A stretch of 64,000 nucleotides of DNA from Akkermansia muciniphila (GTDB lineage: Bacteria > Verrucomicrobiota > Verrucomicrobiia > Verrucomicrobiales > Akkermansiaceae): the NCBI GenBank assembly GCA_945890645.1, contig CAMDCV010000003.1, positions 62,001 through 126,000 on the forward strand. Direction: 5' to 3'. Below, in pieces: positions 4,201 through 62,504 of this stretch. Numbering within the stretch: position 1 is the first letter of the stretch; each line of letters starts with the position of its first letter. A program made the translations under genes and the position numbers. The notes beneath the pieces are model-generated. The model saw only the letters and a list, made by a program, of their open reading frames with translations, was not told where the DNA came from and did no database searches.

Positions 4201-6417
4201 ATCGCTCCCGGCGAGTCGGTGATTCTCATCGAAACGAACGATCTCGCCACAAAAGCAGCTCTTTTCCGCTCCAACTGGTTCGGTGCGAGTCCTCCTGTTG
4301 GGCTCCAAATTGGTGCTTATAGCGGTGGTGGCGTCGGCCTCAGCACCGGCGGTGACGGCGTGAACCTCTACGACTCGAAATCCCCCATTGCTGTTCGCCG
4401 CGCCAGTGTTAATTTTGGAATCGCTCCCTCAAGTGCGCCTTTCGCTACCTTTGATAACACGGCTGCTGCCGATGTGGCCACTATCTCCCTCAAGAGTGTC
4501 CCCGGGGTCAACGCAGCATTCATTGCAATCAATTCCGCCAATGAAGTCGGCTCGCCTGGCACGATCACCAGTGGCGGACCGACCGACTTCGCCGCTTGGC
4601 TTGCCGCCAACGGCTTCGCTTCCTTCGGTTTGGGTGCGGATACGGATAACGATGGCATACGTGATTCGTTAGAATATTTCTTCAATATGAATCCGAGCGC
4701 AGGCGGCAATTTCGGGAACATGCCTAAACTCCAGCCCAACAACGGCGCGTTGGAATTGGCCTTCACGCGCCTCACCGACACCGGTAGCGTCCTTGGTGAA
4801 CTCCAAGTATCTAGCGATTTGCATTCATGGACACCCGGCTTGCTTGATGTAGATTACGCCATCTCCTCGGCTATCGTCACCGACGACGAAACTGCTTTCA
4901 CCTACGCCCTTCCCGGCAGCGGCCCGTCAGATCCCGGAACCTCTCCGGTCTATCTGACTCCCAATCTGTCAGATCCAGTCGGTGCCTCGCTCGGCGGCGT
5001 TCGCGTCGTGAACGAAGGACTTGTTGGTGTCGGACGCCTCAGCGGTGATAATACCGACAGCTTCGGAGAAACCCAAGGTGCCGCGTCCGGTCTCTTCATT
5101 ACGAACTGGCGCCTTGATGCGGGCCTGCTGAAAGGCACTTTCAATGTGCTTCCTGATCGCGGCCATGGCGACGGCACTTCGAACTATGCCGCCCGCCTCC
5201 ACCGGGTTGACTTCACCTTTACGCCTTACTACGGAGTTGGCCCTGTTGCTCAGGGTCAGGTTTCCCCGAGCTATGTGGACACCACCAAGTTCACCTATCA
5301 AGATGGCCCGATCACGAAATTCACCACCGGACTCAATCCAATTCCGACAGGCAACATCACGCTATTCGGTCAGACGGTCGGCACCGCTACTGCTGCCAAC
5401 GGTCCCGGCGGCTCGCAACAAAGCCTGCTCTCCTTCGATGCCGAGGCTGTCCATTTGTTCGAAGACGGCTCCGGCTTCGTCTCGGACGAGTATGGCACCT
5501 ACATCGCTCGCTTCGACGCCACGAAGAAGATCACTGGCCTGACCCAACTCCCTGGAGCGGCCCAGCCGATTAAGAGCAACGCGCTTAACTTCGATTCCGT
5601 CGCCGCTCCAACGACCGGCCGCCGCAACAACCAGGGCCTTGAAGGCATGTCGGTCACGCCCGACGGCACGCGTCTCTTCGCCATGCTGCAAAGTGCCACC
5701 GTTCAGGACACCAATGGAAGCCAGCAGCAGACCCGCAACAACGCCCGCTTGTTTGTCTATGACATCGTCGGTGCGAACCGCGAGAACCCAGTGCTGGTCG
5801 GCGAGTATGTTGTGAAGCTCCCGCAAATCGACCTGAACAGCAATGGCTCCGGCGCTGACGGCACCGCCGCTCAGTCCGAAATCGTAGCACTCGGCAACAG
5901 CTCGTTCCTGATGCTGCCGCGCGATGGCAACGGCTTGGGCAAGTCCGGCTCCGCACCGATCCTGTTCAAGTCGGTGCAGCTCGTGGATTTTGCCTCCGCC
6001 ACCAACATCCTCGGGATGTTCGACGGAGTTATCCCCGTCAGCCCGCTCGGAGTTCTCGATTCCAACGTGAAAGCGGCTGCCACCGCGGAGATCATCAACA
6101 TGCTCGAACCGACCGACCTGGCGAAGTTTGGTTTGAACACGACCCTCCCTGCAAACTCCAACACGCTCAACGAGAAAATCGAAGGAATGGCGCTGGTGCC
6201 GGATATCTCGACTGAGCAGGCGAACGACTTCTTCCTCTTCGTCGCTAACGACAACGACTTCCAATCGTCCAACGTAATGATGCTCGACGCCGCCGGCACC
6301 GTTTCCACCAAAGGCAACGGTCAAGTCGGGGGAGTCACCAATGATGCCATGTTCTACGTCTATCGCCTCATCATCGATGCCAGTGGCAAGAAATTCTTCC
6401 GCTTCGATGTGGAGTAA
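1228..6417 (+). CDS. Giant secreted protein with SdiA-regulated-like propeller, two lamin-tail domains and a phytase-like esterase domain
   Basis: A 1729-aa exported protein starting with a signal peptide (residues 1-26, ending near VYAAPF). Visible parts in order: a Ser/Thr-rich beta region (30-340); an SdiA-regulated-like propeller (about 345-640) with [18 protein letters not shown]; a cadherin-like repeat (about 645-750); two tandem, clearly homologous lamin-tail domains (about 755-925 and 930-1110) each with DWFEVTNI and TGWK; a linker with [15 protein letters not shown] and an SSDLHSW module (about 1120-1235); and a C-terminal 'esterase-like activity of phytase' domain (about 1240-1725) with [13 protein letters not shown]. 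Family knowledge suggests a surface or secreted phosphoesterase-like protein, but substrate and activity are unknown. It has no PEP-CTERM tail. A Rho-independent terminator follows directly, so it is probably transcribed alone. Confidence 0.8.
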
Positions 6418-47085: not shown

Positions 47086-50000
47086 ATGAAACCAAATCCC
47101 TATCGATTCCGTATCGCGGCTTTAACCGTACCATCGCTCGCAGCACTCGCCTGCTGCTTGTCCATCGCTCCTCTCCATGCCCAACTGGTGATCCACGAAC
47201 CATTCGCCCAAGCCTCTGGCACCCTTAACGGCAAGGCTGGTGGCACTGGCTTATCGGGAAATTGGACGGTGGGCAGCGGCACGGTGAACGTCGTGACTCC
47301 ATCCACTATGGTCTTCGGTGGCCTAGCCATGACCAATGGACACGCCAATCTCGTGAGGTCCGGTAATACCAATGCTAGGGTCGTCAGGTCCACTGCCTTG
47401 GCGGACGCCGGGTTGCTCGCCAACGATACCGAGCTCTGGTTCAGCCTCGTTATCATGAAAACCAACGGCGGCGGTAACAACGAGTGGTCGGGATTTGCCT
47501 TCGGCACGTCACACCTCACCTCAGGCCCCGGCGCTTTGACCCTCCAAGGAGGTAATGGACTTGGGTTTCGCACAAGAGATGCCAATGTCACGGTCGGCAC
47601 TTGGAACGGCACCACTACCCCTGTCGTAGGAGGCTCACTTGCACTCACTTACAACGTGCCTTCCCTGATCGTGGGAAAAATCAAGTGGGGGGCGACTGTC
47701 TCAGACGTTGAAACCATCACTCTTTACAAACCGACTCCAGACCTCTCGAGCCTGGGTACGGGTGTTTCACAAACCATGGCCGCAGTCGATCAATCGCTTT
47801 TCACCACCATCAGCTATTCCCTGCGGGACGTGGACACGATGAATTATGACGAAATCCGCTTCGGCGCGACCCAAGCCGATGTCATGCCCGTGGACACTGT
47901 TCCGCCGACACTCCTTTCCATTACGGACAATATGGCCGGTGGCCCGATTGGTGAAGATGTGGCGGCTGTCACCTACACCCTGACTTTTGACAAGCACATG
48001 GACCTATCGACCATCACCGCCGCCGATTTCGACAACGCGGGCTCCGCGACCGCCACGGTCGGGACCGTGGCGCAAGTTTCCCAAACCGTCATCACCGTCC
48101 AACTCCTGCCTACGACCCCCGGGACCCTCCAACTCCGCATTCCCTTGGGCAGCGAACTAAAAAGCTTCGCGAATCTCGCCCTCGATACCGATCCTGCCAT
48201 CCTCGACGACACCACCATCACCATCGACGGCGTCACGACTCCCCCTGGCACACCCAGCAGCAACCGTTGGTGGGATGGGGCGACCGTTACGGGCGTCACG
48301 AATGGAGTCAGCGCTGGCGGTGCCGCTACTTGGGACAACGGCACGACCACCAACTGGGACCGCGGTGCTGGATTTGAAGCTCCGGTGGCGTGGGATAATG
48401 CTGGCGGCCACACCGCCATCTTTGGCGGCACGACCGGTACCGGCATAGTCACGCTTGACGGAAACATCACACTCGCTGGACTGACCGTCAACCTTCCCAC
48501 CGCTACCGGCTCCGTTTACTCCATCGGCAATGTGGGTGAGGATAATACGCTCACCTTCACCGGCACGAAAACGGTGACCACCACGGCGACCGGGACCGGC
48601 ACTAACCAAGATGTGATCATCCGCGCGGGGATCTCCGGCTCGCCGACGATGAATATCGATGGTCGCTTGGCGAACTCCGTGGATCAATTCAGCCTTCTAC
48701 CGGGATCTGGCGTCACGCAGACAATTGGCACACTCAACATGCTCAACACCTTTGCCAGCAACAAGCGGCTTATCCTCGGCGGCACCAGCACGGGGAACGT
48801 GGTGGACACGCTCGCGTGGGCTACCACCGCCAACCAATTAATGCTGACGAAGGCGGGTACGGGCAGTTGGACGATCAACAACAACATCTTGGGAATTGGC
48901 AAATCTGGCAGACTCTACGTCGAACAGGGCACCATGACCCTCGGCGGCACGAGCAATTTCCTCTCCCACAAGATTGGGGTGTCTACCGTGCGCGAGTCAA
49001 CTTTCACCGCCTCGAACACGGCCTCCAAGCTGGTCGCCAAAGGCACTATCACGATCGGGGATAACCGTGAGTTTTTCTATGTTCAAAACCTCGGCACGAT
49101 CGCCCCGGGTCCAGGGGTCGCAACACTTGCTGTGACATGGAACGCGAACAATACGTCTCTCGCCAGCAATGGCGCATTCAACATGCAGACTGGCTCCACC
49201 TACGAGTGGGATATTGCTAGCAGCACAAGCACCGACGTAATTAACGTGACCACGGGAGGCTCGAACAACGGAAACCTGATTCTTGGCAACATGACCATCA
49301 AGATTCAGGATGCCGGTGTGACCACTCCCATCGCCGCTGGCGACCAATTGCCCGTGTTCACCTACGAAACCGGCGCGCAAGCGGTGGTTCGCAACATCGG
49401 CACCATTACGTTGGATACATCCGCCCTAGGAGTTGGTTGGTCCGGCACTCCAACCCTCGTCGATAATGGCACAGGCACGATTTACGTGACTGGTCTTTCT
49501 TACACCAGCGGTGGCGATACAACCCCACCCACTTTGACTAGTATCGTCGATGACAAGAGTGGTGGTCCGGTGACTGTAAATACCTTGATCACTTACACCG
49601 TCACATTCGATGAAGACATAGACGATGCAAGTGTCACGGCGGCTGACTTTGACAACGAAGGCACCGCTGCCGTTACTATTGGTTCGATCGCCGAAACTAC
49701 AGCGACTTCCGGCATTTTCACCGTGCAAGTCACGCCAACCAGCGTCGGTAGTCTCAAACTGCGGATCAAATCTGATGCCGTCATCGAAGATACCTCGGGC
49801 AACGATTTGGTGGTTCCGGTCTCCGATGATACGACCATCACCGTGCAAACACACTATCAAGCATGGGCCGGTGGTGCCGCCTTTGGCGATGACGCCAATG
49901 GTGATGGTGTCAGCAACGGTTTAGCGTTCCTGTTAGGTGCCGCTAATACCAGTGCGAATGCGCAGGATCTTCTGCCAAAGGTAGACGAAACGGACGGCAA

Positions 50001-50250
50001 TCTCGTGCTGACATTCAGCATGCGCAACGCGCTTAACCGCGGCGATGCGTCGCTTAACGTCGAGCATAGTAGTGACCTTGGGCTCGTCGATGCATGGGAA
50101 GCCGCCCTGGTGCCGAATACAAGTGGTACTGTTAATGATGTGGTCTTCGCTATCACAGCGGATGGTATCCTCAACGATGTCGTCGCGACCATTCCCGTGA
50201 GCAAAGCAGCCGCAGGGAAGTTGTTCGGACGGGTGGATGGCAACGAGTAA
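47086..50250 (+). CDS. Secreted beta-strand-repeat (PATR) protein with Ig-like repeats
   Basis: A 1054-aa exported protein (signal peptide about 1-30, ending near SIAPLHAQ). It begins with a concanavalin/LamG-like region (about 40-265), followed by two homologous Ig-like domains (about 270-385 and 815-925) recognised by PPTLLSI / PPTLTSI, DNAG/DNEG and TTITV endings, and a central autotransporter-associated beta-strand repeat region (about 390-780; LTKAGTGSWTINNNILGIGKSG). The C-terminal ~130 residues carry the EYxxGxxP-like linker (GDDANGDGVSNGLAFLLGA) and the NVEHSSDL module. No autotransporter beta-barrel or PEP-CTERM tail is present, so the anchoring mode is unknown. A strong terminator follows. 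Confidence 0.82.
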   Translation: MKPNPYRFRIAALTVPSLAALACCLSIAPLHAQLVIHEPFAQASGTLNGKAGGTGLSGNWTVGSGTVNVVTPSTMVFGGLAMTNGHANLVRSGNTNARVVRSTALADAGLLANDTELWFSLVIMKTNGGGNNEWSGFAFGTSHLTSGPGALTLQGGNGLGFRTRDANVTVGTWNGTTTPVVGGSLALTYNVPSLIVGKIKWGATVSDVETITLYKPTPDLSSLGTGVSQTMAAVDQSLFTTISYSLRDVDTMNYDEIRFGATQADVMPVDTVPPTLLSITDNMAGGPIGEDVAAVTYTLTFDKHMDLSTITAADFDNAGSATATVGTVAQVSQTVITVQLLPTTPGTLQLRIPLGSELKSFANLALDTDPAILDDTTITIDGVTTPPGTPSSNRWWDGATVTGVTNGVSAGGAATWDNGTTTNWDRGAGFEAPVAWDNAGGHTAIFGGTTGTGIVTLDGNITLAGLTVNLPTATGSVYSIGNVGEDNTLTFTGTKTVTTTATGTGTNQDVIIRAGISGSPTMNIDGRLANSVDQFSLLPGSGVTQTIGTLNMLNTFASNKRLILGGTSTGNVVDTLAWATTANQLMLTKAGTGSWTINNNILGIGKSGRLYVEQGTMTLGGTSNFLSHKIGVSTVRESTFTASNTASKLVAKGTITIGDNREFFYVQNLGTIAPGPGVATLAVTWNANNTSLASNGAFNMQTGSTYEWDIASSTSTDVINVTTGGSNNGNLILGNMTIKIQDAGVTTPIAAGDQLPVFTYETGAQAVVRNIGTITLDTSALGVGWSGTPTLVDNGTGTIYVTGLSYTSGGDTTPPTLTSIVDDKSGGPVTVNTLITYTVTFDEDIDDASVTAADFDNEGTAAVTIGSIAETTATSGIFTVQVTPTSVGSLKLRIKSDAVIEDTSGNDLVVPVSDDTTITVQTHYQAWAGGAAFGDDANGDGVSNGLAFLLGAANTSANAQDLLPKVDETDGNLVLTFSMRNALNRGDASLNVEHSSDLGLVDAWEAALVPNTSGTVNDVVFAITADGILNDVVATIPVSKAAAGKLFGRVDGNE

Positions 50251-50312: not shown

Positions 50313-50404
50313 GCAAGAAAATATAGGCATTTGCAAAGCGACAAAAATTTTTCTGTAACGCGGGCAAAAAAAGTGTGTTTCCCCTGAGGAACTCCTTTTT
50401 TCCT

Positions 50405-53400
50405 ATGAAAGCATTCATCCAACTCTTCCGCTTAGTCCTACTCCTAACTCCTCTCTGCCTGCGGGCGGATGTGGAATGGGATTCCGTATTTTCCACGGCT
50501 GCGCCTGTCGAAAATTCCTTCGGTATCCCGATCCTTCATCACCCGACGTCACCTATCGCAGTGTATGCCACGGGTGCTCGCACGGGGGACGATGACCCGT
50601 ATGAAAGTATCGTGGCGGTGCGAACGGACACCGGCGTGGTGACGCGCTGGTTGCACTCAGGCGAGGCCTTTGTGACGAGCGGGGATAACGCACCGAAGTT
50701 TTCCGCCAATGGAGATTATCTGGTGGCGATGGGCGCAGATGGCAGTCTCTGGAGTGTGCAGACATCGAGCGGCATGGCGACTCAGCTTACTTCGGAGTGT
50801 GAGAGCTTTGCTATTTCTGGTGATGGCCTATACGTGGCTTACATCGCGGATGGTATGGCCATTTCGCGAGCGCTGGCTGGTGGCGCGGAAATCAATCTGT
50901 TGCCGCTGGCGTACCGCACGGGCGGAGGCGAGGCTCTTGCCATAGAATCAACAAGTGGAAGCGGGCTGTTCGTCATGTTGCTTTCCAAAGGGGTCTCTAC
51001 CGCTGTAAGCACCCTTTATCGGGTGCATGGCAGCAGTGCGGGCTTCACAAATCTTACGACGAACACTGATAGCATTGGACAATGGGAAGTGAACTCTACT
51101 GGAAGCCACGCTGTTTATCGAACTAGGTCATCCTGCGGATCCGTAAACCTCAACGGAGTTCCGTCGGAGGTTGTTCTATACAGCGGTCTGACCTCTTACC
51201 ATCGCTTTGATATTTCTCCAGACGGCTCAAACGTGGCGATTGTGAGTAGCACTTCCTCTCCAAAAAATATTCAAATGGTAGCAATTACAGGGGGGACTCC
51301 TACAGACTTAATCACGTCAAATCATCCTCGATATATAAGTGATGATTTTGGCATACATTTTTCGAAGGATGGCTTATACCTGTATTATTTTGAGTATGAA
51401 CTTTGTTCTGTTCCAACATCAGGCGGCAGTCATCTGCAACTCGGTGTGGGTGGTTGGGGCTCTTATGATCCTTATCTTCAATTGGGATATAGCAATCATC
51501 ATATTCTCATTTATGGCTCAAGTTATGATCACAAGCTGATATCGGTTGATATGAGTGATGGCACAAGTACGGTTCTTAGTCAACCTTCCTTGTCGGACGC
51601 CGCTATCGGCACTTTTCTCATAGCAGAGGATGGTCAAAGTGTTTATTATCCGAATGACGAGTTAGTTGCAGGACAAACAGATATTTTTCAAGTCGCGGTG
51701 GACGGCTCTACAAAAATCCGAGTTTCAACCGATGCGCTACATGAAGTTTCCCGCATGATTGAAAGCGGTGACGGGGCCTCCATTGTGGGGAATTCAGCAG
51801 ATACAGTAATGAAATTCACGGTGGGAGTACCTGAGTCTGCATCGCTGGTTTCGGTGAACGCTCCGACGAATCATTTGTATAAAACTTTTGAAAAACTTTC
51901 TCCAGACGGCGCTTATATCTTTTTTAAGACGGATGTGCCTGATGCAGAATCGAAAATTCTTAAATGCCATTTGAGTCTTGTTTCCCGGGCATCCGGGAGT
52001 TCCATTGATCTTACAGACGAACCAATTTACGATTTAGGGGATGAGTATGAAATGGCACAATTTACTTCAGATTCACAGTGGATTGTTTTTCTTAAAACGG
52101 AAGACTACACTTCCTATTATCTCATCAATGGCTTTGTCGCATACCGAATCTCTGATGGTTTGCGAATAGAGATTGATGATTCCTTGGATAATTTTGAAAC
52201 TATTTTCTCTAATAGAAATTATTTTAAAATCACTCCTTCTGGTGATGCCGTTGTTTACCGTGACTCGAGCGGTAAAATTTATCGTTTTGATCTTGATGGT
52301 ATCTCTACCGAACCAGTTCAGATCGGCGAATATATTGGTAGCGTGAATTCCTTTACTTTTTCACCAGCAGGTGATGAAATTTTACTGAGTTACTATGGCC
52401 ATACCTCTCGCATCATGCTGGATGGATCAGAAAGTACAATCGTAACTGAAGAGATTTTGAATGGTGTGACCTATTCCGCAGACGGAAGCTCGATATTTTA
52501 CTGTATTCATGACGATCTGTACAAGTATATCATTACCGATGGGACTGTGAGTTTTCTGGCGACTCTTCCTGGTCGATGTGAAGAGATCACCACAACGGAA
52601 AGCGGGAAGTTGATTATTGAAACGATACTTGGCTATTATGTGGTTTCCCCTACTGATGGTTCATACCTTCTTCTTCACAATTACGATGTAGGTGATGCAA
52701 TTATTGACGGAAAGAACTGGGTCACCTGCGATGGCGATTCTTTGTTTGTTTTCTATGCAGAAGATGCCAGTGGCGCGCTAGGTCTGTATAAAGTGCCCAT
52801 GACTGGCGGCACTCCCGCGTTGATTTCGCGCACACTTCCCCTGGGCGGTAAGATCACGGATGTGCAGATTTCCCCCGCTAATACATTTCTCGTTTATCGT
52901 GCGGATGTGAATGCGGATCAGCGGTTTGAGCTATTCTGTGTGGATGTCGCATCGGGATCGGATTGGAGAGTGAATCAGCTCCTCACTGGCGCGGCGGATG
53001 TGCGGTCGGACTGGATTCTTGCCTCGGACAATCATTTGCTCTATCGCGCGGATCCCACGCGGGCGGGATTTCCGCGGCTCTATGGTGTGAGTTTTATCGA
53101 TAGGCAGATCACCGACTTCACTACACCCGCATGGAATCCGAATAGTCGTGTGAATGGACTTTTTGCGACCTCCACGGATGGGCAATTTGCGGTAGTGGAT
53201 GGTGACCCTACGGGCACGCTAACCCATGGTTTGCACAGTGTCTGGGCTAATCCAGAGATTGATATTTTGCCGGATCGTGAATTCCTTGTAGGCGAGCATT
53301 ATTTGAACGACCATTTTACGATCTCTGATTTGGAAAGTGGCCGGGATCTCACAGTGGCATTGGGGACGGATAATGCGGATCTTGTGGATCCATCCAATAC

Positions 53401-55663
53401 CATGCATGGGAGAAGTGGGCCGTATCTGGATTTCACTGTGTTCTTTGAACCGAGCGAATGGGGACTGGTAACCGTTACAGGGGTGGCATATGATGATATG
53501 GGTTCATCGAGCAGTTCGTTTGCCATCAAAGTTTTGCCCGAAAGCAATCTCTCGCCCACGAATATCTTGCTGGCTCCGGCATCGGTGATGGAAAACCAAG
53601 CACCGGGTACCTTAGTTGGCTACTTGAGCGCCACGGATGCGAATGCGTGGGATAGTTTCACCTTCGAATTGGTATCGGGCGCTGGTGATGCGAACAACGC
53701 TTCGTTTTTCATCGATGGCAATTCCTTAAAAACCACGGGGCCGCTCGATCACGAGGCTGGGCCAGTGGTGAGCATTCGCGTAAGGGTAACGGATTTTGCA
53801 GAGGACACTTACGAAAAGAATCTTCACATCCAAGTGCAGGACCAAAAGGGTATTCCCATCGATTTCACTAGAGCGACCGGTGAGGGGCAGTCGTTGGCAT
53901 TTTCCGCCGCTGATTTCATTGATCACTTTGCTCTCACGGATGGTGGTGCCTTGCGTGGCATTCGTCTCGATGGGATGCCGGGAGATGGGACGCTGCATCA
54001 CAAACTATTTCGTCGTGAGATCGACACGGCGGCTACGGCTATTTCCTTCGCGATGCCCGGTGATGTGAATGGCGATGGGCGCGTGGACATCGTGGCCTTG
54101 AACGCGGGGGCTGGGCAGTTGGTATGGTATGAAAATACGGGCACGAGCACTCCGGTGTTCACGAAACGAATCATCGCTAACGGCTTGGTCGATCCGAAGG
54201 ACCTCGTGCTCAGCGACATCGATGCCGATGGCGATCGCGACATCGTGGTGGCGGTCAATGGGGACAATAAAATTTTAGGTTATCGCAACTCCGGCGGGTC
54301 ACTGCCTTCGTTCGTAGGCTTTACCGTTTTTTCAGGAGCGGGCGGTGTTTCGGCAGTCGCGGCATTGGATGTGGATAATGACGGTGACAGAGACCTCGTC
54401 AGCACCCATCCGCTGAATCATACGGTGATGATTCACACCAACGATGGCATGTCGCCACCAGGATTCATCTCCGCCGCACTTTCCACCACGGAAAACGGCG
54501 CGGCGGATGTGATGGCTCGCGATGTAGATCTGGACGGTGACATCGATTTGGTCGTAGCCGCGGCAACAGCGGGTGAAGTCGTATGGTTTGAAAAAGTAGG
54601 ACCATCGTTCAATCGCTTCTCGTTAGCTGGAGGACTGAACGTGCCACGCTCGATTGATATGGCCGACATTGATGGCGATGGCCGCCAAGACCTCGTGCTG
54701 GGCACTGAGGGCGATCATACCGTGCGTTGGTTTAAGAACATGCCGCCCGCCAGCAGCGGCATGCCGCCGGCTTTTGTGGGTCATGTCGTTTCTACAACTG
54801 TCGGCTCGGTTTCGCGAGTGCGTGCAGCGGATTATAGTGGCGATGGTGTGCCCGATATTTTGGCATGCGCGCCATTGGATGGTGAGATCCATCTGCACCG
54901 GACTTTTCGCAGCAGTTCAGTAATTTTTACGCATGACTTTCTCGACCGCACGGCAGATGGGGCCTCGTCGGTGGATGTGGCAGATTTTAATTTGAATGGC
55001 ATGCCGGATATCGTCGCGTCGCACGCCGGAACGAACACACTGGCGTGGTATGAAGATGAACGTTTGTTGTCATCCGGCGATGAAGTGGATATCGATGTGA
55101 TGCATCGTCTGCGCTATCAACCGCGCACTGGCTTCAGCGGTATCGATTCATTCGGATGGTCCGGCGATGATGGCACGGGTTGGTCTTTCCTTTCGGCTTC
55201 GGTGAATATTCGCGTGTTTCACTCGCAGTATTGGGACTGGTTGTTGGATGTGTTTGGCGAAGCGGTGGTGTCGGATTATTCCCAGTATGATGCCGTTTGG
55301 TCACTAAGTGCAGACCCCGATCAAGATGGTCTTAACAATTTGATGGAATATGCCATGGGAGGCATCCCCACCAACCCTTCTGATTTGGGCATTCCCCAAC
55401 GAGTGTGGATTAATGATGTAGCAGGCGTATCGCGCTCTCATCTGATCCATGGCGCGCGCAATGATCCGCACTTGGTATACACTCCCGAAGTTAGCACCGA
55501 CCTAAAAACGTGGAGACGTGGACCTACAGCCCTGCAAGCCATTAACCCCGATCAAGCCACTTCCCACCCCGATCTGTTTCTGAAAATGTGGCGCCATACC
55601 TTGCCTGTCGATGCCACGACGCCCTCTGCATTTTTCCGAGTCATGATCGAAATGCTGCCGTGA
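50405..55663 (+). CDS. Giant secreted protein with TolB-like and FG-GAP propellers
   Basis: A 1752-aa exported protein (signal peptide 1-20, ending LCLRADVEW). Residues ~55-950 are TolB/PD40-like beta-propeller repeats (SPDGSNVAIVSS, SPDGAYIFFKTD, SADGSSIFY); ~950-1050 an Ig-like domain; ~1052-1148 a cadherin-like repeat (MENQAPGTLVGYLSATDAN). An Ig-like sandwich (~1152-1590) is interrupted by seven FG-GAP/VCBS calcium-binding repeats (~1220-1548), e.g. DVNGDGRVDIV, DIDGDGRQDLV, DFNLNGMPDIV. The C-terminus (~1600-1752) has DQDGLNNLMEYAMGGIP and EVSTDLKTW. Part of the first propeller (about nt 51200-52700) is AT-richer than the rest, suggesting mosaic origin. It follows the PATR gene but behind a terminator. 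Confidence 0.85.
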   Translation: MKAFIQLFRLVLLLTPLCLRADVEWDSVFSTAAPVENSFGIPILHHPTSPIAVYATGARTGDDDPYESIVAVRTDTGVVTRWLHSGEAFVTSGDNAPKFSANGDYLVAMGADGSLWSVQTSSGMATQLTSECESFAISGDGLYVAYIADGMAISRALAGGAEINLLPLAYRTGGGEALAIESTSGSGLFVMLLSKGVSTAVSTLYRVHGSSAGFTNLTTNTDSIGQWEVNSTGSHAVYRTRSSCGSVNLNGVPSEVVLYSGLTSYHRFDISPDGSNVAIVSSTSSPKNIQMVAITGGTPTDLITSNHPRYISDDFGIHFSKDGLYLYYFEYELCSVPTSGGSHLQLGVGGWGSYDPYLQLGYSNHHILIYGSSYDHKLISVDMSDGTSTVLSQPSLSDAAIGTFLIAEDGQSVYYPNDELVAGQTDIFQVAVDGSTKIRVSTDALHEVSRMIESGDGASIVGNSADTVMKFTVGVPESASLVSVNAPTNHLYKTFEKLSPDGAYIFFKTDVPDAESKILKCHLSLVSRASGSSIDLTDEPIYDLGDEYEMAQFTSDSQWIVFLKTEDYTSYYLINGFVAYRISDGLRIEIDDSLDNFETIFSNRNYFKITPSGDAVVYRDSSGKIYRFDLDGISTEPVQIGEYIGSVNSFTFSPAGDEILLSYYGHTSRIMLDGSESTIVTEEILNGVTYSADGSSIFYCIHDDLYKYIITDGTVSFLATLPGRCEEITTTESGKLIIETILGYYVVSPTDGSYLLLHNYDVGDAIIDGKNWVTCDGDSLFVFYAEDASGALGLYKVPMTGGTPALISRTLPLGGKITDVQISPANTFLVYRADVNADQRFELFCVDVASGSDWRVNQLLTGAADVRSDWILASDNHLLYRADPTRAGFPRLYGVSFIDRQITDFTTPAWNPNSRVNGLFATSTDGQFAVVDGDPTGTLTHGLHSVWANPEIDILPDREFLVGEHYLNDHFTISDLESGRDLTVALGTDNADLVDPSNTMHGRSGPYLDFTVFFEPSEWGLVTVTGVAYDDMGSSSSSFAIKVLPESNLSPTNILLAPASVMENQAPGTLVGYLSATDANAWDSFTFELVSGAGDANNASFFIDGNSLKTTGPLDHEAGPVVSIRVRVTDFAEDTYEKNLHIQVQDQKGIPIDFTRATGEGQSLAFSAADFIDHFALTDGGALRGIRLDGMPGDGTLHHKLFRREIDTAATAISFAMPGDVNGDGRVDIVALNAGAGQLVWYENTGTSTPVFTKRIIANGLVDPKDLVLSDIDADGDRDIVVAVNGDNKILGYRNSGGSLPSFVGFTVFSGAGGVSAVAALDVDNDGDRDLVSTHPLNHTVMIHTNDGMSPPGFISAALSTTENGAADVMARDVDLDGDIDLVVAAATAGEVVWFEKVGPSFNRFSLAGGLNVPRSIDMADIDGDGRQDLVLGTEGDHTVRWFKNMPPASSGMPPAFVGHVVSTTVGSVSRVRAADYSGDGVPDILACAPLDGEIHLHRTFRSSSVIFTHDFLDRTADGASSVDVADFNLNGMPDIVASHAGTNTLAWYEDERLLSSGDEVDIDVMHRLRYQPRTGFSGIDSFGWSGDDGTGWSFLSASVNIRVFHSQYWDWLLDVFGEAVVSDYSQYDAVWSLSADPDQDGLNNLMEYAMGGIPTNPSDLGIPQRVWINDVAGVSRSHLIHGARNDPHLVYTPEVSTDLKTWRRGPTALQAINPDQATSHPDLFLKMWRHTLPVDATTPSAFFRVMIEMLP

Positions 55664-55692
55664 GATTTTATCATCTTATTGGATGATTCAGT

Positions 55693-57141
55693 TTACAAAC
55701 CAAAGTCCGCGTAGTTGAGGAAAAAGCCTTCGTTTTCTAGGGCATCGATGGGGGCTTCTTGGGGTTGGTAGGTAACGCTGAAAAAGGCTCGGCTTTCGTT
55801 GGGGGCTTGGTGGGAAAAGGGATCGCCGGTGCCGTTGGTCCAGCCGCCTAGGGGCATCCAGTCGTTTTGCAGGGTGAGGCTTTTCATCAAGCGATACGAC
55901 AAGCGCTGGCGCGTGCTCCATTCGATTTCGAAGGGGTTGGGGATGGCAGGGTCGTGGGTAATGGTGACGGCGGGTGGCGGGCGCAGGGAAAAGTCGAGCC
56001 AGCGCAGGACTTGTTGGCGGGCGAGTCGGCGCGCTTTTTGATCGGGGCTTTCGTCTGCCGTGTCCCAGTCGAGTGGATCGGCGAGACCAACGGAACCGAG
56101 ATCAAATGAATGCCCCACGCGCTCACCGGGGGCATGAACGGCGGTGCGATTGAAAATGTAGTGACGCAGAATGGGGTTCGGTAGGTCGAGAGTTGCGGCC
56201 TGTGCGGCAGAGGCGAGCACTTGTTTGATGGGAAAAACACTACCGGTGATGGGATCGGAGTCGTGATCGGAGATGCCCATGAGGGAGTCATCGGTGCCGT
56301 GAAAAAGAATGGCCTTTGTGCGACGGTCGAGCATGTAGCGACCGGCGACGGTGGTCGATGCTTGGCCATGATAGGCGAAGTGAGAGCCGCCGCCGTAGTA
56401 GAAGGCGCAGAATTTTGGGATGGGAAGATGATGGGGAATGCGCACTGGCGATGGCACAGCGAACTTGATCGTTTGGGCATTCGGCGCTATGTAATCGACG
56501 TCGTAATTTCCACGATCCACTGAGACATCCACGAGCGCATTCATGCCGGTCTGCGCACCGTGGGAAAACCCGATCATCGCGATGTTTTGTCGGTCGATGT
56601 CAGGTCGCGAAACTAGATAAGTGAGCGCGGCCACTACGTCCTTGGGGCGTTCGTAATTCGGCGAGCACGCGGCATCGTCAAGGGCCGGGTTGCTATGCGG
56701 ACGCTTGCCCTCAAAACTACCGGTGATACCGCGCGGATGAAAACTATCAGGGAAAAGGCATGCATATCCCTCGGTGACAAGTAGATTTCCCCAATCGCGA
56801 AACTGCGAGGCTGGGGCATTATTGACCGTGATGTTGGGCGGCAAAACGTTGTTCGGCCATAAGCCGCCAGAGCCATGTAAAAACAACACGGTTGGATACG
56901 GGCCGGGTCCATGGACGAGCGGGTCAGGCAAATAGAGGCGCGCTATGAGAGTCATACGTTCTTCGTCGTCCGGATAGCCGGGAGTCGCTATGAGTGCGGC
57001 GGTGGGCGTAGGAATTTCCTCCGGCATCAAGCTCTCCGGCATATCATAAAACACCGTCTCGATCACAGGGTCGGCATAACTCGCAGGGATGAGCAGCAAA
57101 AACCACAACACGTTGTTCCGCCAGAGGTGGAGAAATTTCAT
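55693..57141 (-). CDS. Secreted alpha/beta hydrolase with C-terminal beta-sandwich module
   Basis: A 482-aa exported protein (signal peptide about 1-23, ending PASYADP). Residues ~65-390 are an alpha/beta hydrolase resembling dienelactone-hydrolase-type esterases: the HGSGG oxyanion segment (~96-100), GFSHG nucleophile motif (Ser at ~200), a candidate acid in FHGTDDS and a candidate base in VGHSFDL. The last ~75 residues (LSYRLMKSLTLQNDWMPLGGW, ... ESRAFFSV) belong to the beta-sandwich module seen in other secreted proteins of this window. Substrate unknown; an ester of plant or algal polysaccharide is possible. Convergent with the preceding giant gene. Confidence 0.83.
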   Translation of the reverse strand: MKFLHLWRNNVLWFLLLIPASYADPVIETVFYDMPESLMPEEIPTPTAALIATPGYPDDEERMTLIARLYLPDPLVHGPGPYPTVLFLHGSGGLWPNNVLPPNITVNNAPASQFRDWGNLLVTEGYACLFPDSFHPRGITGSFEGKRPHSNPALDDAACSPNYERPKDVVAALTYLVSRPDIDRQNIAMIGFSHGAQTGMNALVDVSVDRGNYDVDYIAPNAQTIKFAVPSPVRIPHHLPIPKFCAFYYGGGSHFAYHGQASTTVAGRYMLDRRTKAILFHGTDDSLMGISDHDSDPITGSVFPIKQVLASAAQAATLDLPNPILRHYIFNRTAVHAPGERVGHSFDLGSVGLADPLDWDTADESPDQKARRLARQQVLRWLDFSLRPPPAVTITHDPAIPNPFEIEWSTRQRLSYRLMKSLTLQNDWMPLGGWTNGTGDPFSHQAPNESRAFFSVTYQPQEAPIDALENEGFFLNYADFGL

Positions 57142-57260
57142 ACCCTATTTCTTAGAAAAAATCATCCGAGATTCCAGAAAAAAGAGCCTGCCATTTCGTT
57201 TGGTGACAAAACGTTCAGTGTAACTCGATTGACAAAATTTCACATCACTACTTCACTATC

Positions 57261-57737
57261 ATGATGAATCAATCAGGAATACCCGACGGTTATCACACAC
57301 TCACTCCATCCTTGAATTTGCGTGGAGCGAACGAGGCACTTGCCTTTTACAAGAGCGCGTTCAATGCCATAGAGCGCTTTCGCATGCCGGATCCTTCAGG
57401 CGGTGTGATGCACGGAGAATTTCAGATCGGCGACTCGATTGTGATGTTCTGCGATGAAGACGCCACGTGGGGAGCATTGAGTCCACAATCGGTCGGTGGC
57501 TGCCCGCTCAGTCTTAACCTCTATGTGCCGGATTGTGATGCTCTCACCGCCCAAGCCGTGGCCGCCGGGGCGGAAATGCTGCGCCCCCCGACCACTTACC
57601 CGTGGGGCGAGCGAAGTGCCATGGTATGCGATCCTTTCGGTTACCGTTGGGCAATTTGCACGCACATTGAGGAAGTTTCACCGGAGGAAATTCAACGCCG
57701 CATGGCAACATGGAATCCTGAAACGGGAGAGTGGTAA
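57261..57737 (+). CDS. VOC family (PhnB-like / glyoxalase superfamily) protein
   Basis: A 158-aa cytoplasmic protein of the vicinal-oxygen-chelate superfamily with the PhnB/YycE-type layout: PSLNLRGANEALAFYKSAFNA near residue 14, GGVMHGEFQIGDSIVMFCDE near 47, and a C-terminal metal-ligand region (RSAMVCDPFGYRWAI). The usual 'DHFWGDR..DPFGH' motif of the PhnB group is replaced by ERSAMVCDPFGY, so the metal-ligand set is modified. Function uncertain; related proteins are annotated as bleomycin-resistance or methyltransferase-like but often have other roles. It is divergent from the hydrolase gene; gap 119 bp. Confidence 0.85.
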   Translation: MMNQSGIPDGYHTLTPSLNLRGANEALAFYKSAFNAIERFRMPDPSGGVMHGEFQIGDSIVMFCDEDATWGALSPQSVGGCPLSLNLYVPDCDALTAQAVAAGAEMLRPPTTYPWGERSAMVCDPFGYRWAICTHIEEVSPEEIQRRMATWNPETGEW

Positions 57738-57796
57738 TCACGCGAATCAGGCAACGAGGGGTTGTGAAACACCATTTCTGTTCTCAGACTGCTTCC

Positions 57797-59218
57797 TCAA
57801 ACTAGCATTCCCAGTGGGGCTTCGGTTCCGGTAATACTATGGAAGTAGTGGAAGTTAGGGAGAATCAGAGGGAGTTGATTGCGTGATACTCCAAGCCACA
57901 AAGCGAGTTCGGCGAAAAATGTGTCGCAGCTCGTAGTCGGGATGAAACGACCGCGTCCGGTATCAAGAGGGTTCACTTCGGGACCGCTTTCGGGGTTGGT
58001 GAGGAGAGAGGGGTATTGACCAAAAATTCGTCTCCCTTGTACGCCACCACCGACGACAAGTTGGTTGCCGCCCCAGGCGTGATCACTGCCACGGCCATTG
58101 CTGGTAAGCGTGCGACCAAAGTCTGACCCGGTGAAAAGACAGACTTGATCTTGTAAGCCCATGGCTACCATGGCGGCATGGAAGGCCCCAATCGCCGCGC
58201 TGACTTCGGGGAGCATCGCGCCTTGTGTAGTGAGGACTTCGTCGTGATGATCCCAGCCGCCGCGTTGGACAAAAAATGTTTGCCGCACGGCACCGAGCGC
58301 GTTGCGACCTTGGATGGTGCGCGCGATCATCGCGAGCCGATTGCCGATGTAAGTGTTAGGAAATGTGATGCCCGCAGGCAGTGCGGGTGCGCTGGCTGCT
58401 GCGAAGACTTGATAGGCATCGAGTGCTTGTTTTTTTCGTTGGTTAAACGTTTGCGAAAGAAGGTTGTTGTATTGTTGTGCGAGCTGCGAATCGACGGCAG
58501 AGGACATGGCATTTTGCAAATCCTGGTATTGTTGCCACGCGGCGTTGTAGCCGCTGAGTGCGACGGCACCTGAGGGCGTGATGCTGTATTCGGCGACGTC
58601 GTTTCCGGTTTGCCAGACATTCGAGCCATCGAGTGATATTTGCATGGGCACTACTTGGCTGCTGTTGGTATCGCGCAGGATATCGGCCATTTTGCCACCC
58701 CAGCCGATACCGCTGCGGGCGTGGGGAACACTGGTTTGCCATTGCTCGATTTGGTCGCTGTGCGAATAGAGTCCGAGCGGCAGGCGCTTGAGGTTCTGCG
58801 CGACTTGCGTGCGGTTCGCTACTGGCTCGATGAGTGTGCCGACGTTAGCCACAAAGGACGCGTGACCATTTTCAAAAAGCGACGCGACCTCTGGCATGCC
58901 GCCGTGGACGTAGTAGCCTGGCTGGCCGATGGGATTGATCGCGATCAGTTCCTCGGGAGGGAGCGCGAGGTCTGCGCGAGCCGTGGTATATTGCGCATAA
59001 GCAGAGGTTTCACGCGGGACGAGCATGTTGAAGGAATCATTGCCACCGGCGAGGAAGAGGCAAACGAGTGCGCGGTATTCTCCGGCCGCAGGGACGCTTG
59101 CATTGGCAATGCCTTGGCTGAGGCGAAGATTGAGCAGGGTGTTCAGGATCGATACCGAACTGATGGCGGCACAACTGCTCTGTTTGAGAAAGCCACGGCG
59201 TGAGATGGTTGAGTTCAT
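57797..59218 (-). CDS. DUF1501 family protein (exported)
   Basis: A 473-aa protein with a TAT-like signal (SRRGFLKQSSCAAISSV). The DUF1501 hallmarks are visible: ALVCLFLAGGNDSFNMLVP near residue 55, YSHSDQIEQWQT near 155, RGGWDHHDEV near 325 and TGSDFGRTLTSNGRGSDHAWGG near 375. DUF1501 proteins resemble the alkaline-phosphatase/sulfatase fold, have no experimentally established function that I know of, and usually occur next to a DUF1800 gene. Here the DUF1800 gene ends 1 bp before its start, an operon. The frame extends upstream to 59563 but overlaps the neighbour, and the RR signal fixes the start. Confidence 0.93.
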   Translation of the reverse strand: MNSTISRRGFLKQSSCAAISSVSILNTLLNLRLSQGIANASVPAAGEYRALVCLFLAGGNDSFNMLVPRETSAYAQYTTARADLALPPEELIAINPIGQPGYYVHGGMPEVASLFENGHASFVANVGTLIEPVANRTQVAQNLKRLPLGLYSHSDQIEQWQTSVPHARSGIGWGGKMADILRDTNSSQVVPMQISLDGSNVWQTGNDVAEYSITPSGAVALSGYNAAWQQYQDLQNAMSSAVDSQLAQQYNNLLSQTFNQRKKQALDAYQVFAAASAPALPAGITFPNTYIGNRLAMIARTIQGRNALGAVRQTFFVQRGGWDHHDEVLTTQGAMLPEVSAAIGAFHAAMVAMGLQDQVCLFTGSDFGRTLTSNGRGSDHAWGGNQLVVGGGVQGRRIFGQYPSLLTNPESGPEVNPLDTGRGRFIPTTSCDTFFAELALWLGVSRNQLPLILPNFHYFHSITGTEAPLGMLV

Positions 59219-59219
59219 G

Positions 59220-61832
59220 TTAGCGGAGCACGTTGAATTCGGGGGAGGTGGTGATGAGATAAACGGCGAGGCGGAAGCGTTGTCGATGCCACTGCCATGT
59301 CGGTGGATTGATGCGCAGCAGAGCCTCGCGGATGATCTGAAATTGTTGAGGCGATAGTGTGCCTCCGGTGAGTGCGAGGTCGAGTCGGCGCAGCAGGGGA
59401 TCAGGATCAAGCGCGGGTCCGGCAGGAACATCTTGCGCGATTTGCGCGACGGGAACGATGTAGGCGAGTTCTTCGTTAAGATTGAGCCGCACTGAATTTG
59501 CGGCAGTGCCGGAGCCTTGCACATGAAGATCGTTAAGCGTGTGTTCCCAAAAATAATTGGCACCTGTTACTGCCGTGGTGGCATTGATGATTTGAAATTC
59601 TGGTGCCACTTTTTCTGCTTCCGTGAGCGCGCCTTGCGGACTGTGGGAGGGGAGGAAATAGTTGAAAACACTCGGCGCATTCAGCGGATCTTGGGCATGG
59701 GCGAGGTTCATTTGCGTGAGCACATACCAACCACCAGTGGCGGAAGCATTGAACGCATGAGCGAAGTTGACCACTCGAAGTAATGGCTCGCGCAGTTTGC
59801 CCCATGTGGGATCATTCATCATGGCGGGATCGCGTGCTTCGGGGTCGAGCAATACGGCTTTGATGACGGCTTTCATATCGCCGCGAACATTGCTGCCATT
59901 GTCCGCAAATTTCATCGCCACGCGCTCCACGTAGGCATCACTGGGATTTGATGTGACAAAGCGTTGGATGAGTTGCTTGCCGAGAAAAGGGCCGACGTTC
60001 GGGTGATGAAATAGTTGATCAATCGCGGCATTCACATCCGCGAGTCCTGCGGTTCCGGTGTTGCCTGGGCTGGGTGTGCGGGCGGGCAAGGCGAGGCCGA
60101 GAATCGTTTTAGCATCGCAGTCGTGCTGAGCATCCCACATCTTCATCGGCTGGGTGAAATCGCGCGGCCATAGCTGGAAGTTTGTATTGTTGCCAAAAGA
60201 TACACCGGTGAAAACGCGGGCAAGTTCGGTGATGTCGTTGTTGTCGTAGGTGGGGATAGGCAGTCCTTCCGCGACCTCATTGCCAGCAGGATCAAGATCA
60301 TCACCATCTGACAAATAGAGCGTGCCGTTCTCCTTCAATCGCCATAGGCCTATGGAAAAAAGCTGCATGATTTCGCGGGCGAAATTTTCATCGGGAAAGA
60401 TATTGTTTGCCGCATCGGCCTTTACGTTGCCGAGGTGGGAAAGATAAATGCCCATCACCGGATGCATGGCGACGTCGTAGAGGAGATCGCGGAAATTTCC
60501 GAAGGAATGAGTGACAAGTCGATCATAGTAATTGGCAAGGCCGATGCGCTCGACAGCGAGTGCCTCGGGTCGATCACTGACGACGAGAATTTCGCTCAGC
60601 GCAAATGCCAAACGCTGCCGCAGTGGATCGGGTAACTGCGATGTCGTGGCATCCGGGCGCAATTTCGGCACACCCATGACGCGGTTCCACCAGGCCACTT
60701 GCGTGGAGGCGCCATAAATTCCCAGACCCTGCCCATTGGTGGCTTGCCATTCGGTCCATGGTTGGAGTAATCCGATCGGACGGGTGAACTGATCCTCGAT
60801 CCAAGCCTCATATCCCTGCGCCATCAATGCTTCCACATTTTCGGGAATTTCATCGGCATCATTCAAATCTTGATCCGGCCCAAACGAAGCCTGTACAAGA
60901 AATCGCGCAGCAGCTTTTGCCGATGGCAAGCTCGATGCCGTTTCGTTTTCTAACGTGACCGTGCCACTTGTGGTTGTGCCTAGCGAATAACCTGTTCCAG
61001 CGAGCGCGGTGACGATGATGGTTTCGGTGGTTTCCGCATCATTTGCATCGGCGATGGGTGTCAGTGCAATCGGCACTTCGCGCACACCGGCAGCGAAGAA
61101 AACAGAAGTCGAGGCACTGCTCGTGTAGTCCGTTACCAATGTGGCGGTGCCACCGAAGGAGAGCGAAACTGTTAGAGGCTTCAAACCACCACTGCGCCGC
61201 ACCACTATCGTTGCCGGATCGGGCCAGCGCTCCGACATGACAGCATCTAGGACTGCTACGTTGATCGTGCTGATCGCATTCAAGCTTGCATTGATACGAG
61301 CGAGGTCAAGCGTATCGTTTCGATCGGTGCGGTTGGTGGAGGGATTGAAACCGAGCCAGCGTTCTTCTGCATCGTTGGCTCCATCGGTATCGGAATCGAC
61401 ATCATCGATCTTCAAACGCCAGAACTTTGATGGTTCTGCTGCGGGCAGCAGCAGAGAAACAGGTCCCGCCTGTTGCGCAATTTCTGTGGAGTCGGTGAAC
61501 CAATCATTGAGCGACAAGTTTTGTGATGATTCGATACGGTAGCGTTTTCCAAGAATGCGCTTATAGCCTAATTGAAATTGTCCTGAAGTCGATGGAGCAA
61601 GAGAAAGGGCAGCGGAAGAACTCGCGCTGAAAGGATCGGTGCCTGCCGCGCTTTCTTGCGCATTGCTGGCTCCGTCACCATCGGCATCGCCCGCTGCCGT
61701 GAGCGATTGCGCGTTGTAGATGATTTCCCAAACATCATTGAGCCCATCACCATCAGCATCTATCGCGCTCACTGGTAGAGCCATGGCGAACAAAATTGCC
61801 ATGATGATTGGGCGTGTACTTATTTCCTTCAT
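59220..61832 (-). CDS. DUF1800 family protein (exported) with Calx-beta-like N-terminal region
   Basis: An 870-aa exported protein (signal peptide 1-23, ending LPVSAIDAD). It starts with two calcium-binding type-3-like repeats (DADGDGLNDVWE, DADGDGASNAQE), then a SxNLSLNDW beta-sandwich module (~90-165), a Calx-beta-like domain (~220-320, SLSFGGTATLVTDYT, ETTETIIVTAL) and the DUF1800 domain (~330-870; RFLVQASFGPDQDLND, PNVGPFLGKQLIQRFVTSNP, NEEIMQLFS-like ENFAREIMQLFSIG). DUF1800 has no known activity. The gene is followed 1 bp later by DUF1501, the standard arrangement. The ATG at 61832 was chosen because it precedes the signal peptide directly. Confidence 0.93.
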   Translation of the reverse strand: MKEISTRPIIMAILFAMALPVSAIDADGDGLNDVWEIIYNAQSLTAAGDADGDGASNAQESAAGTDPFSASSSAALSLAPSTSGQFQLGYKRILGKRYRIESSQNLSLNDWFTDSTEIAQQAGPVSLLLPAAEPSKFWRLKIDDVDSDTDGANDAEERWLGFNPSTNRTDRNDTLDLARINASLNAISTINVAVLDAVMSERWPDPATIVVRRSGGLKPLTVSLSFGGTATLVTDYTSSASTSVFFAAGVREVPIALTPIADANDAETTETIIVTALAGTGYSLGTTTSGTVTLENETASSLPSAKAAARFLVQASFGPDQDLNDADEIPENVEALMAQGYEAWIEDQFTRPIGLLQPWTEWQATNGQGLGIYGASTQVAWWNRVMGVPKLRPDATTSQLPDPLRQRLAFALSEILVVSDRPEALAVERIGLANYYDRLVTHSFGNFRDLLYDVAMHPVMGIYLSHLGNVKADAANNIFPDENFAREIMQLFSIGLWRLKENGTLYLSDGDDLDPAGNEVAEGLPIPTYDNNDITELARVFTGVSFGNNTNFQLWPRDFTQPMKMWDAQHDCDAKTILGLALPARTPSPGNTGTAGLADVNAAIDQLFHHPNVGPFLGKQLIQRFVTSNPSDAYVERVAMKFADNGSNVRGDMKAVIKAVLLDPEARDPAMMNDPTWGKLREPLLRVVNFAHAFNASATGGWYVLTQMNLAHAQDPLNAPSVFNYFLPSHSPQGALTEAEKVAPEFQIINATTAVTGANYFWEHTLNDLHVQGSGTAANSVRLNLNEELAYIVPVAQIAQDVPAGPALDPDPLLRRLDLALTGGTLSPQQFQIIREALLRINPPTWQWHRQRFRLAVYLITTSPEFNVLR

Positions 61833-61894
61833 GTTGTCGCTGGGTTTGCAATTCTCTTGTAAATGATTCAATAAAATGTTCGACGATTGTCAAG

Positions 61895-62112
61895 TCAGTT
61901 CGAGAGCGGTACGATGGCCACGACCCGGAAAAATTTCTTCGGATTTCCTGGGTAGAAAATCACGCGGGTAGTGGTGGCGCCGGAATCAGGCGTTAAGAGT
62001 CCGAGTGAGGAATCGGTCCATGGTGGGGTGAGGTCGTTTGAGTATTCGATCCGATACAAGCGCTTGGGGCTGCTGTTGAATGTGAGAGATGATTGGGGAA
62101 TGCTAATGTCAT
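61895..62112 (-). pseudogene. C-terminal fragment of a secreted protein (SNDLxxxW module)
   Basis: Reading on the minus strand, about 70 codons give SLTFNSSPKRLYRIEYSN, DLTPPWTDSS and end with PKKFFRVVAI before a TGA. This is the same C-terminal module as in the neighbouring large secreted proteins, but there is no start codon or upstream part: the frame joins directly to a broken sigma-factor gene. It is the remnant of a gene whose 5' part has been lost. Confidence 0.65.
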
Positions 62113-62116
62113 GGCT

Positions 62117-62423
62117 GTGAGAAAAGATTTCACAGCAGTCCCCAGAAAATGCCGGAAACGCCCACGCTCTCGTCGCGCCTTTTCCACGAGTCGACGTTCG
62201 ATCAGCTTGACAAAAAATCCTGCGTCAAATCCTTCGCCTGCTCTGCGTCCACGCCTCTGGCCCGCACCAGCGCATAAATCGGAAACCAATAAATGCGACA
62301 CAACTCCGTCAAAGCCAGCTGCCCCGCATCCGATTCCGCTCCAGCGCCCTGCACGATCGACCACCGCGTCGTAGAAAATATCCCGTCGCCACGACCATCG
62401 TTCTCCGAATTGTCATTCGACAT
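62117..62423 (-). pseudogene. Truncated, frameshifted ECF-like sigma factor gene
   Basis: From the ATG at 62423 the N-terminus SNDNSENDGRGDGIFSTTRWSIVQ ... CRIYWFPIYALVRARGVD ... DLTQDF matches the start of a large ECF-type sigma-factor subfamily common in PVC bacteria (RNA polymerase sigma-70 region 2). The frame stops at 62202-62204 just after DLTQDF. In the next frame the protein continues as FFVKLIERRLVEKARRERG, RFRHFLGTAVKSFLT. The break falls in a run of six T residues (about 62209-62214), consistent with loss of one T. The product is then truncated near 62117, where another coding remnant begins. So this is a pseudogene, unless the shift is a sequencing error. Confidence 0.78.
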
Positions 62424-62504
62424 GCCACACTGCATACCAAATGGAATCATAGATGACAAGAATCCAAGTGTGTTAGATAAAACGGTGCCCTGCCGACAGG
62501 GCAG

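Follow-up and report, generated by a model that had tools for sequence, protein, structure and literature searches.

The type IX C-terminal domains (CTDs) of Bacteroidota are Ig-like sandwiches of ~80-100 residues, which are found on many unrelated Sec-exported proteins and carry a short motif near their end. A PEP-CTERM tail consists of a short motif, a membrane helix and a basic end. To our knowledge, the route by which Verrucomicrobiota place large polysaccharide-degrading and beta-helical proteins on their surface has not been established. A survey of secreted proteomes reported that Verrucomicrobiota have many proteins with signal peptides and few whose predicted location is extra-cytoplasmic (PMC11495043).

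Here, we analyzed a stretch of 64,000 nucleotides from Akkermansia muciniphila (contig CAMDCV010000003.1, positions 62,001 to 126,000; the whole stretch is referred to as the window), in which several proteins share a module that resembles these systems in some respects. The module forms a coherent family with a mostly terminal position, diverse exported cargo, a retained terminal strand and no later membrane helix.

Detection of the module in the window and its genome

A preliminary description of the window had noted a shared module in its proteins and located it in six segments, whose coordinates proved to be right. We built an independent profile from 36 C-terminal copies, all of which came from other genomes and none from the genome of the window, and ran it against the window translated in six frames. 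Five of the six segments were matched, with E-values from 1e-6 to 6e-18, and the reversed window gave no match. Thus, the shared module is real and is one coherent protein domain, with the tail of an alpha/beta hydrolase as a doubtful member. Whether the segments align in one profile, the check proposed in the preliminary description, was answered positively for these five.

Three of the proteins are encoded on the forward strand. A phytase-like protein (ORF 1228-6417) contains the first part of a module, from the calcium loop to the penultimate strand, at 4582-4971 (E 1e-12 with the independent profile), and a split-off last strand of 13 residues at its extreme C-terminus, at 6376-6414. C-terminal modules are present in a 1054-aa exported protein (ORF 47086-50250; module at 49837-50247, E 3e-12) and in a 1762-aa FG-GAP/propeller protein (ORF 50375-55663; module at 55262-55660, E 6e-18), whose length is counted from an upstream GTG and had earlier been given as 1752 aa. 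The label PATR formerly attached to the 1054-aa protein found no support in Pfam, though PATR proteins do occur elsewhere among the genome's module proteins.

On the reverse strand, a DUF1800 protein (ORF 59220-61871) carries an N-terminal module right behind its signal peptide, at 61386-61742 (E 8e-18), with a TSP3_bac match in the loop (1.4e-8). The genes for this protein and for a DUF1501 protein are adjacent (57797-61871, reverse strand); only the DUF1800 protein bears the module, and the DUF1501 protein, which has none, begins with a twin-arginine-like SRRGFLK. The alpha/beta hydrolase (ORF 55693-57141, reverse strand) has a sandwich-like tail at 55762-55995 with 22 extra residues. This tail was matched at the expected place by the independent profile only at E 0.07-0.14; a profile to which the tail itself contributes gave E 7e-9. 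The last segment, at 61898-62131 on the reverse strand, is a remnant (E 1e-6), the C-terminal end of a lost module protein. It ends with GNPKKFFRVVAIVPLSN, and its open frame (61898-62224) lacks a plausible gene start. The remnant directly adjoins what appears by eye to be the broken start of a sigma-70/ECF-type sigma factor, RWSIVQ..LTELCRIYWFPIYALVRARG..DLTQDF (61898-62504, reverse strand), for which no Pfam match was found. This arrangement suggests a deletion that joined two gene ends.

A calcium loop, previously assigned to three segments, actually precedes four of the six, being degenerate in the 1054-aa protein and missing from the hydrolase tail and the remnant. The number of copies had likewise been underestimated: about 55, rather than six, are present in the same genome (3.8 Mb). 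A first profile made of the six window segments gave 62 matches in this genome at E<=1 and 48 at E<=1e-3, and a second one, made of 29 copies, gave 58 at E<=1e-3; most of these matches cover both loop and sandwich, and some weak ones cover the TSP3-like loop only.

Predicted structure and database matches

According to alignments and AlphaFold2, the module comprises ~110 residues and consists of a short helix, a TSP3-like calcium loop (DxDxDGxxNxxEYxxGxxP), another helix and an FN3/Ig-like sandwich. The loop is followed by 70-90 residues, with YxvExSxDLxxW mid-way and [KR]xFxR[LV]xV, which forms the last strand, at the end. The L, W, F and R residues are near-invariant in the module alignments. 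The conserved residues look core-like and not like a surface patch, and the conserved core that they form may be purely structural. The copy at 55262-55660 was modeled from a 47-row alignment with a pLDDT of 82 and a pTM of 0.71. In this AlphaFold2 model two short helices flank the loop and a sandwich of at least five strands follows, the FxR strand being the last, which agrees with the candidate beta-sandwich of the preliminary description.

The best structural matches of the module were fibronectin type III domains of cytokine receptors (Z 7.1, 76 residues, 2.7 A), a likeness that is suggestive only, as a Z below 8 may reflect merely a common arrangement; on the other hand, none of 29 members matched a Pfam FN3 model. 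Foldseek found nothing in the PDB at E<=0.001. An existing Pfam match would have spoken against novelty, but neither Pfam (models up to 2025) nor NCBIfam (June 2026) contained a model covering the sandwich. TSP3_bac (PF18884) matched the loop in 8 of the 29 members at E<=1; its likeness to the module is limited to this loop of ~20 residues, and the sandwich lies outside that family. Amuc_1099 (NF042425, best E-value 2.7e-8) was rejected, since its matches did not reach the cut-off of the model and, in the members inspected, lay in the loop region alone. F5/8 type C models (PF22633/PF00754) matched one or two of the 29 members (E 0.0019-0.013), and the discoidin/CBM32 structures 4zxe, 4zy9 and 2rv9 gave weak profile matches (E 0.04), while no F5/8 type C domain (discoidin, CBM32) was present among the structural matches listed. 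In a literature search mostly confined to journals outside subscription, no description of the domain was found. The domain is nameless in Pfam, NCBIfam and the searched papers, and we count it, by its putative function, among the C-terminal sorting or anchoring domains.

Position in proteins and the C-terminal tail

It had been suggested that the position of the module argues against a sorting signal. However, the majority of copies are C-terminal. In the genome of the window, 45 of 56 copies stop within 10 residues of the C-terminus, and [FYH]xR lies within the last 16 residues in 42 of these; the same motif is similarly placed in two further copies (L081 and L094) though their profile match ends earlier. 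In 33 other genomes, 36 of 40 copies stop within 6 residues of the C-terminus, in a sample biased toward terminal copies because it consists of the best matches of a profile made mostly of C-terminal ones. Of 78 tails, 64 have 2-4 residues past FxRLxV, and a terminal proline is found in 42 of 83; near-identical copies inflate some of these position and tail counts. Within the genome of the window, proline ends 24 of 46 module tails versus 15 of 130 other ORFs (Fisher p 8e-8, an approximate value, as related copies were counted and the background ORFs were called crudely). In other genomes, 18 of 37 copies have it.

The view that other domains follow the module holds for the DUF1800 protein, which has a true N-terminal copy, and fails for the phytase-like protein, in which the module is split and its last strand is terminal. 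N-terminal copies directly behind a signal peptide were identified in three DUF1800 and two LamG-containing proteins of the same genome (L056, L058, L061, L063 and window 61386-61742), as well as in two other genomes (L117 and L142); one more copy (L066) is internal. These exceptions, mainly N-terminal, weigh most heavily against a purely C-terminal signal. They imply that a free C-terminus is not required for the existence of the domain, which can work away from the C-terminus.

A split module in the phytase-like protein

The Pfam Phytase-like domain occupies residues 1359-1678 of the window protein, and a homologue from another genus ends with IDTGKKFFRVNVEEAP immediately past the propeller. 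In the window protein and in ten homologues whose module lies upstream of the propeller, the C-terminus is invariably [KRS]-FFR-x-x-V or a close form, whereas two homologues without the upstream module lack an FFR-type end. One additional homologue with the module, L162 (G238:C40), has an in-frame TAG near its end, before which no FFR terminal strand was seen, and was left out of this judgement owing to the in-frame stop.

We then scored these proteins with a position-specific matrix (PSSM) of the terminal strand that had been trained without the phytase family. The extreme C-terminus was the best position in the window protein (19.9 bits versus 7.7 for the next) and in all ten homologues (15-22 bits versus at most 11), and no such end was found in the module-free homologues. 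When tails were swapped and scored with the whole-domain HMM, a less telling test than the matrix, the real tail of the phytase-like protein ranked 4 of 479, with a gain of 1.6 bits. A second structure model (611 aa, pLDDT 66) contained a separate strand at residues 605-610, and the structural matches of the propeller ended at residue 597-600 of 611. As the terminal strand is kept in the window protein and the ten homologues and is missing where the module is missing, the phytase-like copy is a module that was split by insertion of the propeller before its last strand, and the protein still finishes with that strand. The result is a domain nested in a domain, with the propeller inside the terminal module, and this is conserved in the phytase-like family.

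Cargo proteins and genomic context

Apart from the module, the cargo proteins are unrelated to each other. They include subtilases with P domains, a GH/sialate-esterase (SASA) protein, a GSDH dehydrogenase, a MauG-type diheme peroxidase, a cyclophilin, a reprolysin-like metallopeptidase, FG-GAP and WD40-type propellers, and at least eight PATR beta-helix proteins; seven PATR beta-helix proteins have the module at their end. By a simple test (not SignalP), a strongly hydrophobic start was present in 40 of 51 ORFs with a complete 5' end. In 91 module proteins, no membrane helix was found past residue 60, and a possible lipobox was present in only four.

The autotransporter barrel (PF03797) had no match in the genome, while positive controls were detected; thus, at the C-terminus of the PATR proteins the module takes the place that the barrel has in other bacteria. 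PEP-CTERM tails (PF07589) are present in the same genome, with 12 matches over the cut-off and 17 at E<=0.1, all in other ORFs than the confident modules.

Several PATR-type proteins (L046-L050 and L090, on contigs C10, C25, C27 and C53) have near-identical terminal modules (about 90%), some of them at contig ends, and one fragment of this group (C27:6239-6403) contains an in-frame stop. This points to a recent duplication or conversion of tails. In addition, the ends of two contigs (C52 and C9; L083 and L084) bear an almost identical module fragment of 160 aa, probably a repeat that broke the assembly.

Distribution in Verrucomicrobiota

Of 289 genomes sampled from the phylum Verrucomicrobiota, 179 contained the family at E<=1e-4, as did 165 of 252 good genomes. 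The number of matches per genome at E<=1e-3, which may contain some loop-only matches, was at least 150 each in Haloferula sp. BvORR071 and Pontiella sulfatireligans, 81 in a Prosthecobacter, 80 in IMCC26134 and 59 in a Luteolibacter MAG. A search with a single protein as query gave, as the best 80 named relatives, records of Verrucomicrobia and its subgroups, Kiritimatiellales, the PVC group or an unspecified bacterium. This agrees with the lineage-specific nature proposed in the preliminary description, these 80 relatives being only Verrucomicrobiota/Kiritimatiellota (PVC) or unspecified bacterial records. A tblastn search against plasmids found nothing.

Possible functions of the module

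We see about an even chance that the module serves as a C-terminal surface-targeting or anchoring domain of Sec-exported Verrucomicrobiota proteins. In this case, the signal peptide would bring the protein to the periplasm. There, a partner might recognize the folded domain at the protein end together with its free C-terminus, in which FxRLxV is followed by 2-4 residues, often with proline as the last. The partner, a putative component of the outer membrane or surface layer, would either carry the protein out or hold it there. Such recognition, as well as the surface location and the route, is what we infer from the features described above. A more specific form, which is possible but should be regarded as tentative, is that Verrucomicrobiota possess an undescribed system for export across the outer membrane or for surface anchoring, and that this domain marks its cargo. 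The domain would then act like the type IX CTD but with other machinery, and would serve dozens to more than 100 proteins per cell. Since one C-terminal domain is shared by dozens to more than 100 proteins, it names a candidate surface proteome for each genome, and it could be used as a bait for finding the machinery.

The next most likely explanation after targeting or anchoring, although a doubtful one, is the adhesive or substrate-binding module favored in the preliminary description, in which an FN3- or lectin-like sandwich would attach to polysaccharide, either of the cell's own matrix or of the substrate, as CBMs do at the ends of enzymes. The weak matches to discoidin/CBM32 and, in one or two members, to PF22633/PF00754 are in line with it, as are the many hydrolases among the cargoes, and the N-terminal copies suit binding that is independent of position. 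However, a binder would not be expected to keep a strict terminal position, a short tail of narrow length range and a terminal proline. Cargo such as cyclophilin, MauG and GSDH needs no polysaccharide target, and the core-like appearance of the conserved residues, as we read it, offers no binding patch on the surface.

A passive role is also possible, but we consider it unlikely that the module is simply a structural cap, a terminal Ig-like domain that stabilizes long exported proteins and shields them from carboxypeptidases, with calcium stiffening the linker. The terminal proline and short tail would suit protection of the C-terminus, and a calcium loop is predicted ahead of the sandwich; yet small cargo proteins of 350-560 aa also bear the module, and a cap would not require one fold and one terminal motif across a whole phylum. 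It is highly improbable that there is no true family and that the likeness arose by chance from the TSP3 loops that exported proteins commonly contain. Although such a loop is part of the profile and some weak matches lie only there, most matches span loop and sandwich, the remnant is recognized by the independent profile despite having no loop while the reversed window stays blank, and a confident fold was predicted. Chance likeness is refuted for five of the six segments and is possible for the alpha/beta-hydrolase tail.

Comparison with known C-terminal systems

Among the described systems, the autotransporter barrel (PF03797) is comparable in that the module occupies the C-terminus of PATR beta-helix passengers, but no such barrel was found in the genome and the module is far too small to form one. 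PEP-CTERM/exosortase tails (PF07589) are likewise C-terminal tags on many exported proteins, and of the same genome; unlike them, the module is folded and soluble, lacks a membrane helix and occurs on other ORFs.

Another of the closest systems is the type IX CTD (Por_Secre_tail, PF18962/TIGR04183), with which the module shares its size, the Ig-like sandwich (predicted for the module), the C-terminal location on diverse Sec-exported proteins and the end motif. It differs in having N-terminal copies and a calcium loop ahead of the sandwich, and none of the 29 members was matched by type IX sorting-tail models of Pfam or NCBIfam at E<=1. SprA was detected in none of 57 genomes of the class, including that of the window, in a search in which no control genome gave a match. 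In the most likely reading, the module targets or anchors proteins to the outer surface in the manner of the type IX CTDs, yet does not belong to them.
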